Assembly (NCBI RefSeq): GCF_005503365.1
Contig: NZ_SCML01000007.1
Coordinates: forward strand, 1-64,000
DNA: 64,000 nt
Direction of reading: 5' to 3'
Source: Hydrogenophaga sp. 2FB
GTDB lineage: Bacteria; Pseudomonadota; Gammaproteobacteria; Burkholderiales; Burkholderiaceae_C
The translations under genes were made by a program, and so were the position numbers. The notes under the pieces are model-generated. The model ran no database searches, was not told where the DNA came from, and worked only from the letters and a program-made list of their open reading frames with translations. Positions 19,285-23,268 of this stretch are shown in pieces; the stretch's first letter is position 1; every line of letters starts with the position of its first letter.

Positions 19285-19361
19285 CGGCGTGTAGCGCAGC
19301 CTGGTAGCGCACTTGCATGGGGTGCAAGGGGTCGCGAGTTCGAATCCCGCCACGCCGACCA
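19285..19361 (+). tRNA. tRNA-Pro (anticodon GGG)
   Basis: The 77-base cloverleaf has a seven-pair acceptor stem (CGGCGTG/CACGCCG), a D-arm with GCGC...GCGC, and an anticodon stem CTTGC/GCAAG whose seven-base loop carries GGG at 19319-19321. The T-arm contains GTTCGAATC, and CCA is encoded at 19359-19361. It reads CCC proline codons. Its 3' end is followed by a terminator, not by an integrase or a partial tRNA copy. Confidence 0.97.
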
Positions 19362-19370
19362 TTTATACAA

Positions 19371-19404
19371 AGCCCGAAATTGAAAGATTTCGGGCTTTTT
19401 CTTT
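19371..19404 (+). terminator. Intrinsic terminator after tRNA-Pro
   Basis: AGCCCGAAAT (19371-19380) pairs with ATTTCGGGCT (19387-19396) and a T-rich tract follows. Confidence 0.88.
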
Positions 19405-19600: not shown

Positions 19601-20191
19601 ATGATCGATTCTTCACAATCCACGCCTTCTTCCTCTTCCGGCGTCTCTCGTCGCCGTTTGGTGCGTGCTGGCTTGTCGGCGGCTCCCGTGATGGCTGCGT
19701 TGAAGAGCAACAGTGTGCTGGCGGGGGACCACACTTGCATTCGCCCGTCTTCGTTCTCGTCGTTGTCCGCTGCGCAGATGAAAGTCAGTCAAGGTCGCGC
19801 CATCAAGACGGACTTTGAATGCAAGTCGCATGGATATTGGAAGAACAACAATGCCGGCTTGGCAACGAACTTCAAGGAAACCACCAAGTTTCTGTCGACG
19901 ACTACGGGCTTCACGCAAGACCCCGGCAATGCCTACAACAAGCTGACCATCCAGCAGGTGCTCGAACAAGGTGGCAATCGCAACAATGCAGCGTTGGCTC
20001 GCCACGTTGCGGCAGCGTTCCTCACGGCCACTGCATTCAACAACGATTCAACGCGCGTGCTGTTGACCAAGAGCCAGTGCCGCGCGATATGGAACGGGCA
20101 AGGTGTGTGGTCGCCCTTTGCCGGCGCCACCTGGACGCTGTCTCAGACGATGGCCTACTTTGACGCGATCTACGGTCCAGCCTTCCTGTGA
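19601..20191 (+). CDS. Tat-type secreted GYWKN-motif protein, head of the HPr-rel-A-like cassette
   Basis: The 196-residue protein starts with a Ser-rich tail, a twin-arginine signal (SRRRLV at 16-21) and a hydrophobic stretch to about residue 41. The mature part contains CKSHGYWKNN (74-83). This recalls the GYWKNHP segment of a poorly understood family of secreted bacterial proteins, here with N in place of HP. It then has a helical repeat-like region and a conserved-looking Trp-rich end. It is the first gene of five that overlap or abut, so it is a candidate substrate of the downstream kinase and nucleotidyltransferase. That link is inference. A GAGGT site precedes ATG 19601. Confidence 0.65.
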   Translation: MIDSSQSTPSSSSGVSRRRLVRAGLSAAPVMAALKSNSVLAGDHTCIRPSSFSSLSAAQMKVSQGRAIKTDFECKSHGYWKNNNAGLATNFKETTKFLSTTTGFTQDPGNAYNKLTIQQVLEQGGNRNNAALARHVAAAFLTATAFNNDSTRVLLTKSQCRAIWNGQGVWSPFAGATWTLSQTMAYFDAIYGPAFL

Positions 20192-20481
20192 CCCTGGAGC
20201 AGGCCCAGGTCAACTGCCGTTGTCCACGGGCCGGTCAATTTGCCGTTCAGTATTGGTCGGATGGCGCGGTGGTGTATGACGATGCGAACGGTAGCCTGCA
20301 CGCGCTGACACCCATCGCCGGCGAGGCATTCGCCTTGCTGCAAGCCGAGCAGGCCTCCGATGCCAGAAGCCTTGCGTATGCCATGGGGCTGGCTGAGCCA
20401 GAGGTTGAGGAACTGGACATGCTGCAGTCCTTGCTCTTGCAATTCGAGTCGATGGGTTTGATCGCGTGCACTCAGGGGTGA
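20188..20481 (+). CDS. PqqD-like protein of the HPr-rel-A type
   Basis: The 97-residue protein resembles PqqD-family peptide chaperones: a small beta-rich domain with SDGAVVYDDANGSLHALTP near residues 24-42, then helices ending in LLLQFESMGLI. PqqD proteins hand peptide substrates to modifying enzymes. In this variant the partner enzyme is not a radical SAM protein but the HprK-like kinase next door. GTG 20188 overlaps the previous stop (GTGA), so translation is probably coupled. Assignment to the HPr-rel-A PqqD subgroup is from gene order and motif impression. Confidence 0.75.
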   Translation: MTLEQAQVNCRCPRAGQFAVQYWSDGAVVYDDANGSLHALTPIAGEAFALLQAEQASDARSLAYAMGLAEPEVEELDMLQSLLLQFESMGLIACTQG

Positions 20482-21398
20482 GATTCACGCAGGTGCTTTC
20501 TGCATTCTCTCCAGCGGAACTGGCGCGGCGCCTTCGCTCTGGCGGCATCTTTCTGCGCATCCCGCCGTTTGTCATGCACATCTGCAGCCCGATTCCGGTG
20601 GTCGCGCAGGGCCTGCATGCGCTGTATCCCGACCATGAGGTTTTAACGGACGAGGATATCTTCGCGGACTTCCACGTCTCGGTGAAGCCCAAACGACGCT
20701 TGCTGAAGACCGTCTGCGTGTTCGAGATGGATGGTTTTCAACCCTTCACGCCCTTGGCATATGGCGAGGCTTACGCCTTTCTGGAGTGGGGCATGAACTG
20801 GTGCGTGACCAGCTATTGCCATACTTGGATCACCGTGCATTCAGCGGTGCTTGAACGTGGTGGACGGGTGGTGATACTGCCCGCGCCGCCGGGATCGGGC
20901 AAGAGCACGCTGTGCGCGGCGCTGATGTTGAATGGCTGGCGTTTGCTGTCGGACGAAATGGCATTGCTCGATCCTGTTTCTGGTCTGGTCACCCCATCGC
21001 CGCGTCCCGTGAGTTTGAAGAACGAGTCCATCGAGGTGATTCGAGGTCTGGCACCCGATGCGAGCTTTGGACCCGTCGCCCGCGACACGATGAAGGGCAC
21101 CGTGGCGCACATGCGCATTTCACCGCAGAGCCTGGCGCTTGCGGGAGAGTCGGCGCGACCGGCATGGGTGGTCTTTCCGCAGTTCAAAAGGGCGGCGGCG
21201 CTGTCTGTGCAAGAGCGGCCCAAGGCCAATGCATTGGTGGAACTGGCGTCCAACAGTTTCAACCACCATGTGCACGGCCGTGCCGGATTTCAGGCCTTGG
21301 CAACGCTGGTGGATGAATGTGGCTGCTACGACCTGCAGTACGGCCACCTCGACGAAGCCATCGCGTGGTTTGCGGCGCTTGCCGCCTCTCCGACATGA
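20478..21398 (+). CDS. HprK-related kinase (HPr-rel-A type)
   Basis: The 306-residue protein resembles the catalytic domain of HPr(Ser) kinase. The P-loop is PPGSGKST at 137-144 and the following SDEM (158-161) matches the acidic site that positions phosphate. The N-terminal ~125 residues are family-specific (SPAELARRL, FADFHVSVKP). True HprK phosphorylates Ser46 of HPr in sugar regulation; the target of this branch is unknown. GTG 20478 is chosen because it overlaps the previous stop as GTGA, like the junction before it; GTG 20466 is possible. It ends in an ATGA overlap with the nucleotidyltransferase. Confidence 0.8.
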   Translation: MRFTQVLSAFSPAELARRLRSGGIFLRIPPFVMHICSPIPVVAQGLHALYPDHEVLTDEDIFADFHVSVKPKRRLLKTVCVFEMDGFQPFTPLAYGEAYAFLEWGMNWCVTSYCHTWITVHSAVLERGGRVVILPAPPGSGKSTLCAALMLNGWRLLSDEMALLDPVSGLVTPSPRPVSLKNESIEVIRGLAPDASFGPVARDTMKGTVAHMRISPQSLALAGESARPAWVVFPQFKRAAALSVQERPKANALVELASNSFNHHVHGRAGFQALATLVDECGCYDLQYGHLDEAIAWFAALAASPT

Positions 21399-22501
21399 CA
21401 CTGCCCCGCATCGACACACTTGTTGCTGCTTTGAAGCAGCCTGCCAGCCTGGCCGCTTTGGGCCCGGGCGCGTGGGACGTGCTCATTCGCCAGGCCCGTC
21501 AGGCCGACTTGCTGGCCCGCATCGGCCGCGTTGCGCAGGCCGAAGGCCATTGGGACGGGCTTCCTCTCGCGCCACGCCGGCATCTTGCGTCGGCCATGGG
21601 GTTGGCTGCTCGGCAACAGACCGAACTGCACTACGAAGTGGTGGAGATCGCGCGCGCGCTGGAGCCGATCGAACTGCCCGTGGTGCTGCTCAAGGGCGCG
21701 GCTTACACCATGGCAGGCCTGGACGCTTCTCGTGGGCGCATGGTGTCCGATGTGGACATTCTGGTGCCCCGCCAGCGTCTGGCCGAGGTGGAGTCCGTGT
21801 TGATGATGGGCGGATGGGTGTCGATGAACCGCGATGCGTATGACCAGCGCTACTACCGCACCTGGATGCACGAGTTGCCGCCGCTCAAGCACATGAAGCG
21901 GGGAACGGTGCTCGACGTCCACCACGCCATCATGCCGCTGACGGCCCGGCTCAAGCCCGACTCCAACCTGCTCCTGCACAGCGCCCGTCCCCTCGAGAGC
22001 GATCCGCGGGTACAAGTGCTGTGCCCCGCCGACATGGTGTTGCACAGTGCGGCACACCTTTTCCATGAAGGTGATCTGGAGCTGGGTCTTAGAGGGTTGG
22101 TCGATCTGGACGCGCTGTTGCGTGAATTCGGATCGGATCCTGCGTTCTGGCCCGAGTTGCTCGTGCGTGCCCGCGACCTGCAGCTGGACTGGCCCCTGCA
22201 TCAGGCATTGCGCTATGTGGGGACGCTGTTGAACTCGCCCGTTCCTTCGCATGTGACCGAGGCCCTGTACGCAAGCCCTGGCGTGAGCATCGCACCATGG
22301 CGTCAGCGCACGCTGGACGCCTTGTTCTTGCGCGCGCTGCGCCCGGCCCATGCATCGGCTTCGGATGCATGGACGCCCGCAGCGCGTTTTCTCCTGTATC
22401 TGCGCGGGCATTGGCTGCGCATGCCGCCGACGATGTTGCTGTGGCACCTGTTGCGCAAGTTGGTCAAATCAACGCACTCAGCTCCCGTGGAGGCGAAATG
22501 A
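21395..22501 (+). CDS. Nucleotidyltransferase-fold protein (NTP_transf_5 type)
   Basis: The 368-residue protein carries the signature of the uncharacterised NTP_transf_5 group: LPVVLLKGAAYTM (95-106), then MVSDVDILV (116-124) supplying the metal-binding aspartates D119 and D121, and LDVHHAIM further on. Nucleotidyltransferases of this fold move NMP groups onto proteins, RNA or small molecules; the acceptor here is unknown. ATG 21395 overlaps the kinase stop (ATGA) and its own stop overlaps the protease start the same way. The tight coupling implies the products work in fixed ratio. Confidence 0.78.
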   Translation: MTLPRIDTLVAALKQPASLAALGPGAWDVLIRQARQADLLARIGRVAQAEGHWDGLPLAPRRHLASAMGLAARQQTELHYEVVEIARALEPIELPVVLLKGAAYTMAGLDASRGRMVSDVDILVPRQRLAEVESVLMMGGWVSMNRDAYDQRYYRTWMHELPPLKHMKRGTVLDVHHAIMPLTARLKPDSNLLLHSARPLESDPRVQVLCPADMVLHSAAHLFHEGDLELGLRGLVDLDALLREFGSDPAFWPELLVRARDLQLDWPLHQALRYVGTLLNSPVPSHVTEALYASPGVSIAPWRQRTLDALFLRALRPAHASASDAWTPAARFLLYLRGHWLRMPPTMLLWHLLRKLVKSTHSAPVEAK

Positions 22502-23268
22502 AGCGGCGTTTCTTTCACGCCATCGGCCTGTCGGTGATCGGGCTGATGTGGGGCAGTTCGGTGTGGGCGGGACTCGCCGACGCCGTGGTTCGCGTGAAGC
22601 CTTCGGTGGTTCTGGTTGGCACGTTCAAAACCACAGACACCCCCCGTTTTCAACTGCGCGGTGCGGGTTTTCTGGTCGCGGGTGGGGACTTGGCAGTGAC
22701 CACCGCCCATGTGCTGCCGTCTGACTCAGGTTCTGCAGAATCGGCTTCATTGTTTGTTCAGGTCCGCGCTGGGTCGGGCGAGTGGCAGATGCGCGCCGCC
22801 ACGGTGCTGGAGATCGATGTGGCCCGCGATCTCGCCTTGATTCGCATCACCGGCACGCCCGGGCCCGCGCTCAAGATCGGGGACTCGAGACGCGTGAGGG
22901 AGGGCGACAACCTGGCTTTCATGGGGTTTCCCATCGGCGGCTCCCTCGGCTTTTCGCATGTGACGCACCGGGCGACGGTGTCCAGCATCACCTCCGCCGC
23001 GTTGCCCAGTCCTTCCGCCGAGCGCTTGAAGGAGCAGGCCATTCGCGGCTTGCGCAATGGCACCTTCGATATTTTTCAACTCGATGCCACGGCCTACCCA
23101 GGCAACAGCGGCGGCCCCTTGTTCGATCCGGACACCAGCGAGGTCATGGGGGTGATGAGCATGGTGCTCATCAAGAACACGCGCGAATCGGCGTTGAGCC
23201 AGCCATCTGGCATTTCCTATGCCATTCCCAGCCGCTATGCGCAGGCGTTGGTGGATCGTCACCGCTGA
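22498..23268 (+). CDS. Exported trypsin-like serine protease
   Basis: The 256-residue protein has a Sec signal peptide (MKRRFFHAIGLSVIGLMW..., cleavage near residue 24). A chymotrypsin-fold protease domain follows with a full triad: H71 in TTAHV, D111 in ARDLAL and S204 in GNSGGPL. There is no PDZ domain, unlike DegP/DegQ, and the length fits a single protease domain. It closes the five-gene cassette with an ATGA overlap, so it may process the secreted GYWKN protein in the periplasm. That role is inferred only from position. Confidence 0.82.
   Translation: MKRRFFHAIGLSVIGLMWGSSVWAGLADAVVRVKPSVVLVGTFKTTDTPRFQLRGAGFLVAGGDLAVTTAHVLPSDSGSAESASLFVQVRAGSGEWQMRAATVLEIDVARDLALIRITGTPGPALKIGDSRRVREGDNLAFMGFPIGGSLGFSHVTHRATVSSITSAALPSPSAERLKEQAIRGLRNGTFDIFQLDATAYPGNSGGPLFDPDTSEVMGVMSMVLIKNTRESALSQPSGISYAIPSRYAQALVDRHR

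Follow-up and report, generated by a model that had tools for sequence, protein, structure and literature searches.

A predicted twin-arginine leader protein accompanies an HprK-related kinase, a PqqD-like protein and a nucleotidyltransferase in a recurring cassette of Hydrogenophaga and other Pseudomonadota

The DNA analysed here (hereafter the window) comprises 64,000 nucleotides of Hydrogenophaga sp. 2FB (contig NZ_SCML01000007.1). It contains a cassette of five genes, g1 to g5, encoding in this order a protein predicted to be exported by the twin-arginine translocation (Tat) pathway, a PqqD-like protein, a kinase related to HPr kinase, a nucleotidyltransferase and a trypsin-like protease (Table 1). 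An earlier note, made from the sequence alone, had described four-base overlaps at the four successive junctions (GTGA, GTGA, ATGA and ATGA) and read the layout as that of a peptide- or protein-modifying system. The overlaps are present as claimed, and there is no room for a further gene between g1 and g5. In the whole genome (6.31 Mb), g1 and the kinase have a single match each.

The three central genes were compared with family models and solved structures. The kinase g3 scores 352.3 bits against TIGR04352 (HprK_rel_A; cut-off 200), and its residues H121, K142, D159, E160 and K181 are found in 132/132 aligned sequences; a longer in-frame GTG start exists for this gene at 20466. g4 matches PF14907 (NTP_transf_5; E = 3.4e-55), Pfam alone being matched and not NCBIfam. 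Its residues K100 and G101 occur in 127/127 aligned sequences, and R115, D119 and D121 in 126/127. Searches of the Protein Data Bank (PDB) sequences with the kinase profile and with the nucleotidyltransferase returned no useful relative. g2 is aligned with the whole TIGR04353 model (positions 1–74) at its expected place, with 31 bits (E = 3.8e-7; cut-off 35). The PqqD profile matched the PDB sequences of TbiB1 and TfuB1 weakly (E = 0.07–0.08), ranking them below designed proteins, and a structure model was therefore needed. This model, with a predicted local distance difference test score (pLDDT) of 89.8, has the winged-helix fold of the B1/PqqD type, its best solved matches being TbiB1 and TfuB1 with leader peptides. 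On the strength of the modelled fold, g2 is predicted to be a recognition element of the kind that serves ribosomally synthesised and post-translationally modified peptides (RiPPs).

Table 1. Features of the five-gene cassette and its upstream boundary, in positions of the window.
Feature	Position	Strand	Description
g1	19601..20191	+	196 aa; GYWKN protein, predicted to be exported by Tat; proposed substrate; called as an open reading frame with homologues adjoining the kinase
Conserved twin-arginine leader (g1 residues 16-46)	19646..19738	+	Proposed g2 recognition sequence; leader profile E 2.7e-11
Cys46–Ser54 motif, C-I-R-P-S50-S-F-S-S54	19736..19762	+	Behind the signal; proposed phosphorylation site
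GYWKN motif (g1 residues 78-82)	19832..19846	+	In the mature part; W80 in at least 90% of 75 g1 sequences
g2	20188..20481	+	97 aa; GTG start; PqqD-like, predicted RiPP recognition element
g3	20478..21398	+	306 aa; GTG start; HprK-related kinase A, proposed protein kinase
g4	21395..22501	+	368 aa; NTP_transf_5 nucleotidyltransferase; proposed phosphoserine capping
g5	22498..23268	+	256 aa; trypsin-like protease with predicted signal peptide; role uncertain
tRNA-Pro (ggg)	19285..19361	+	ARAGORN; boundary marker just upstream, outside the system
Terminator-like stem and T run	19369..19398	+	Between tRNA-Pro and g1; consensus scan

The recurrence of the cassette was followed in two samples of kinase loci. 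Set A consists of 81 loci, namely the window and the best 80 of 585 confirmed relatives of the kinase, and is for this reason skewed to close relatives. Set B consists of 51 loci from 50 genomes out of an even sample of 397 Pseudomonadota genomes, 51 of which, the window's own included, have a kinase above the TIGR04352 cut-off. The six-frame open reading frames (ORFs) of these 132 loci were scanned with iterated profiles; position was left out of the scoring and serves as a check on the matches. The secreted gene, whose absence from most cassettes the earlier note had named as the finding that would speak against its proposal, adjoins the kinase in 80/81 loci of set A and 45/51 of set B. In 79 set A loci it precedes the kinase on the same strand, in one (L059) it lies downstream, and L075 has neither a g1 nor a PqqD match. 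The set B count is made up of 37 loci found with the g1 profile at E ≤ 0.01, seven with a profile of the short sphingomonad type and one (L127) by eye. The nucleotidyltransferase is present in 127/132 loci and PqqD in 118/132. This arrangement of g1 and kinase recurs far beyond chance, and the genes form one recurring system, as the earlier note had supposed from their layout.

Departures from this arrangement are of several kinds. No g1 stands beside the kinase in six set B loci (L123, L140, L141, L155, L156 and L160). The genomes of L123, L155, L156 and L160 have a g1 elsewhere (L171, L206, L172 and L205, respectively), with a PqqD gene adjoining it in L171, L206 and L205, not in L172. A further genome (G117) carries a second g1 and PqqD pair (L207) on top of its cassette, so that L171, L205, L206 and L207 are all pairs of this type, each located away from its genome's kinase and nucleotidyltransferase. 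The profile search found no PqqD match in ten gammaproteobacterial cassettes (L120–L128 and L169); g1 is present in nine of them. Between g1 and the kinase of L120 and L125 there is a short ORF without assignment, which may be a diverged PqqD. Two leader-bearing g1 copies lie in tandem in Azohydromonas lata (L082, 7025-9539). In the sphingomonad-type cassettes L129–L137, matched by the g1sph profile, the first gene is short, ends in TC(F/Y)ASLQ and has no GYWKN.

No NCBIfam or Pfam family reaches its cut-off with g1. Toxin_10 was matched at chance level (E = 0.077; 13 bits against a cut-off of 28.6). MamG and fimbrial usher, each matched by one g1 member of 75, and PCEMA1, matched by a single member, were set aside as equally due to chance. 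The g1 profile found nothing among the PDB sequences at E ≤ 1. The structure model has a mean pLDDT of 75.2, with the leader mostly below 50, and Foldseek returned no PDB match for it at E ≤ 0.001; for these reasons we make no claim on the fold of g1.

In the N-terminal part of g1, a twin-arginine motif (R17 R18) precedes a hydrophobic stretch, and from its sequence this leader is predicted to be a Tat signal; among 75 aligned relatives R18 is invariant and R17 is conserved in at least 90%. Signal peptides usually drift faster than the mature domains that they export. The neighbouring protease g5 follows this rule, with an identity of 0.216 in the signal and 0.479 in the mature part (26 proteins). 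In g1 the order is reversed, the identity being 0.419 in the leader and 0.290 in the mature part (78 proteins; 0.224 and 0.199 after shuffling), and the leader exceeds the mature part in 88% of 800 sampled pairs. The leader is unusually conserved. Leader and motif counts exclude L012, where g1 is cut by the contig end, and L060, where its start was misassigned.

A profile of 31 leader positions (A5) was built from 47 hand-picked fragments (of 80 thinned) of sets A and B. In the 51 kinase genomes it matches 42 at E ≤ 0.01, in 46 places which, by a check of coordinates, are 37 cassette g1 genes, five unlinked g1 genes and four doubtful ones. Since A5 was built partly from these genomes, its reach in them is partly by construction; its silence elsewhere and its unlinked matches are not. 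Across the 397 genomes, 44 match at E ≤ 0.001, 35 with a kinase above the cut-off and nine without, absence being weak evidence in this search because at most 20 candidates per genome were scored. All 28 places at E ≤ 5.0e-6 belong to kinase genomes, and the next one (5.3e-6) to a genome without the kinase. In the window's own genome, the g1 leader is the only match at E ≤ 0.01. A leader profile made from set A only gave 19 matches at E ≤ 0.01 in the set B loci, all of them in the g1 ORF. The profile of full-length g1 (A3), built without the set B rows, matches 31 of the 397 genomes, with 22 matches at the cassette, two at unlinked g1 genes (G219 and G077) and seven others, the two strongest of which (G288 and G230) cover the mature part only. 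Overall, the leader profile singles out mostly g1.

Besides the leader, g1 proteins share serine motifs. In the alignment of 75 sequences R18 and S54 are the sole invariant positions beyond the gaps of its first sequence, and M1, R17, C46, S50, W80, F97, F104 and L141 are conserved in at least 90%. A cysteine followed by Ser-x3-Ser lies behind the signal in 70 of 78 set A proteins. The 45 set B proteins are distributed differently: seven have this pattern, 29 have [STA]C[WFYLI]xS[FLIS] close to the C-terminus, one has both and eight have neither. A motif of this SCWxS type takes the place of S54 in other lineages. In shuffled g1 sequences, the two patterns are matched by 8.7 and 0.1 per 123, respectively. 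In each of the five unlinked g1 proteins, which are outside these counts, SC[WL]xS[FL] occurs close to the end. We infer that both motifs serve one kind of kinase.

The proposal of the earlier note that g1 is the substrate holds up against the check for cassettes lacking g1 and comes out strengthened, with g1 as the probable substrate, while the GYWKN motif, on which the note had centred it, gives way to the twin-arginine leader and the serine motif as the uniting features. In other lineages the first gene often encodes the leader and no GYWKN, and two GYWKN-type proteins have no leader. In the latter, L173 (2113-4393; 760-residue ORF) and L174 (3904-4801; 299-residue ORF), the domain lies behind other N-termini. 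As both occur in genomes without an over-cut-off kinase, GYWKN was dropped as a hallmark of the system; this type of domain is a wider secreted module.

The nearest named system is HPr-rel-A (TIGR04352 and TIGR04353), the first model being exceeded by the kinase and the second matched over its full length by the PqqD-like protein. The NCBIfam models name no substrate; the constant member added here is the leader-bearing g1. Literature searches by system name or accession found no paper on HPr-rel-A, nor did we find one that joins a RiPP recognition element with a signal peptide and the Tat pathway; the one paper listed for twin-arginine signals together with RiPP leaders concerns the nisin machinery. 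The second-best NCBIfam match of g3 is ScmC of the SynChlorMet cassette (TIGR04249), which is matched in the P-loop region with 24.4 bits, far below the cut-off of 125. The SynChlorMet cassette, too, includes a PqqD-like protein and has a peptide as its target. g3 resembles HPr(Ser) kinase/phosphatase (TIGR00679) in the P-loop region and in the conserved H, GxGKST and DE, with a score of 13.5 bits against a cut-off of 240.

A functional precedent is offered by the tailoring of lasso peptides. According to two reviews, a homologue of HPr kinase phosphorylates the C-terminal serine of lasso precursors, for which a His-Lys-Asp-Asp set is required, and the phosphate of pseudomycoidin receives one or two hexoses from a nucleotidyltransferase (PMC9266682; PMC8498205). 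For PadeB1, a PqqD homologue, the reported Kd of leader binding is about 5 nM (PMC5067487). Among the genomes of ruminal bacteria that one survey analysed for lasso clusters, about 58% had an HPr kinase, about 46% PqqD and about 30% an uncharacterised nucleotidyltransferase (PMC7533575). Paeninodin and pseudomycoidin share with our cassette the combination of an HPr-kinase homologue, a nucleotidyltransferase and a leader-binding protein of PqqD/B1 type, and the lasso B1 proteins have the fold nearest to that of g2. The proposed substrate differs in being a protein, some 200 residues long, that carries a predicted Tat leader. Moreover, none of the five genes matches a family of lasso B2 peptidases or C cyclases in NCBIfam or Pfam, and the cassette was therefore not filed as a lasso cluster.

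The protease g5 matches PF13365 (Trypsin_2; E = 1.7e-22) and has H71, D111 and S204 in common with 35/35 aligned sequences. The earlier note had seen in it the processing enzyme of the cassette, a role that is weakly supported: the protease lies near the kinase in 26/81 loci of set A and 9/51 of set B. Genome-wide (E ≤ 1e-20) it occurs in 29/397 genomes, comprising 17 of 51 with the kinase, including all 16 of the window's class, and 12 of 346 without it (Fisher p = 9e-10, relatedness ignored). The role was downgraded because, of the 19 protease genomes that can be placed in the draw of 289 genomes searched for exosortases (those with handles up to G288), 18 contain an exosortase as well (E ≤ 1e-20). 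The protease is loosely tied to the cassette, and its distribution follows the exosortase at least as well as the kinase. Members of the family lie within 10 kb of exosortase genes in four places (G219:C16, G282:C1, G266:C1 and G196:C1), three of the four genomes having no over-cut-off kinase; the family may be an unrecognised part of exosortase loci.

Finding the trio of lasso tailoring beside a leader-bearing exported protein suggests, by analogy, that the same chemistry is carried out on a protein. We lean, with some caution, towards the view that the conserved kinase, nucleotidyltransferase and PqqD-like protein modify g1 in the cytoplasm before its export. g2 would bind the twin-arginine leader of g1 and thereby bring in g3, which would phosphorylate the motif serine, S54 or S50 in the window and the C-terminal serine of SCWxS in other lineages. 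The NTP_transf_5 protein could then place a sugar or a nucleotide on the phosphate, as reported for PsmN after PsmK on pseudomycoidin; g4 is likened to PsmN by the described function of the latter. The capped g1 would leave by the Tat pathway and lose its leader. Trimming or turnover of exported g1 may fall to the coupled protease, this being the weakest step.

Several points weigh against modification of g1 by the trio. g2 falls 4 bits short of the TIGR04353 cut-off. In g3, the histidine, the lysine and one aspartate of the lasso kinases have clear counterparts while the fourth catalytic residue is unmatched, and this likeness was drawn from the residue description in the reviews. The profiles were iterated on the very loci that they scored, so that weak matches lean on them. 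The conservation of the leader was contrasted with the signals of the g5 protease only. The serine patterns were composed after the sequences had been viewed, with related sequences counted many times; depending on the lineage, they lie towards one end of the protein or the other, and neither is present in 16/123 g1 proteins (8/78 in set A, 8/45 in set B). Finally, the PqqD-bearing loci L140 and L141 have no g1 in the cassette and, according to the leader profile, none in the genome.

Two rival readings assign g1 a different part. g2 could be an export chaperone acting in quality control on the Tat signal of g1, with the kinase and the nucleotidyltransferase working not on g1 but on this chaperone, or governing when export takes place. 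The same data would be expected of a PqqD-like protein binding a Tat signal, and the displaced pairs described above indicate that g1 and PqqD can part from the two enzymes. However, this leaves the conserved serine motifs outside the signal unexplained, and the precedent for the enzyme pair is the tailoring of a leader-bearing peptide; we regard the chaperone as an unlikely explanation. Very improbable, in our estimate, is that the trio has some other small peptide or protein as its target, with g1 as a neighbour under shared regulation. The known relatives of the enzyme set act on short lasso precursors, and the link between kinase and g1 is not direct. Yet the tightly packed window cassette offers no gap for another target gene, its genome has no second leader match at the threshold given above, and it is g1 that adjoins a PqqD gene in 4/5 unlinked cases.

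A third reading concerns the purpose of the cassette and is compatible with the modification of g1. Here the cassette would be accessory to the exopolysaccharide system of exosortase A (XrtA/PEP-CTERM), with g1 as a matrix protein readied, for example, by a phosphate-linked sugar. XrtA exceeds its cut-off in 29/51 kinase genomes, including 15/16 of the window's class, and 20 of the 26 XrtA genomes in the 289-genome draw carry the kinase. In addition, 31/81 set A loci adjoin XrtA-type polysaccharide genes in varying order and orientation, these neighbours being assigned by clusters with one annotated member each. On the other hand, 22/51 kinase genomes have no XrtA above the cut-off, and the window's own genome has no XrtA match at E ≤ 0.001 and no PrsT above the cut-off; the cassette with its coupled protease can therefore stand without XrtA. 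We give this reading a small chance.

The proposed modification of g1 by the trio supplies the widespread, named HPr-rel-A system with a family of candidate substrates, a predicted sequence for their recognition and residues that are candidates for the modification. A bolder generalisation, plausible to us though short of probable, is that the Tat signal doubles as a RiPP-type leader which the PqqD-like protein reads, that the kinase and the nucleotidyltransferase phosphorylate and then glycosylate or nucleotidylate a motif serine of whole proteins while these are still in the cytoplasm, and that many Pseudomonadota export proteins already phospho-capped. If true, this would join RiPP leader recognition to protein export, point to a way in which bacteria attach phospho-linked sugars to proteins that they secrete, extend tailoring of the lasso style beyond peptides to such proteins and give HPr-rel-A its substrate.

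The close packing of the window cassette varies elsewhere. Of the 63 set A loci with both genes called, 32 have at most 20 bases between g1 and PqqD, overlaps included; between kinase and nucleotidyltransferase the same holds for 72/77. The four-base overlaps are not universal in this set. One cassette (L054), with a kinase 46% identical, comes from a contig of 4.2 kb that bears the label Pirellulaceae and may be proteobacterial DNA that was misbinned. In the window, the terminator-like stem between tRNA-Pro and g1, one of five such sites given by the consensus scan of the region against 4.1 expected, suggests a separate transcription start for the cassette.

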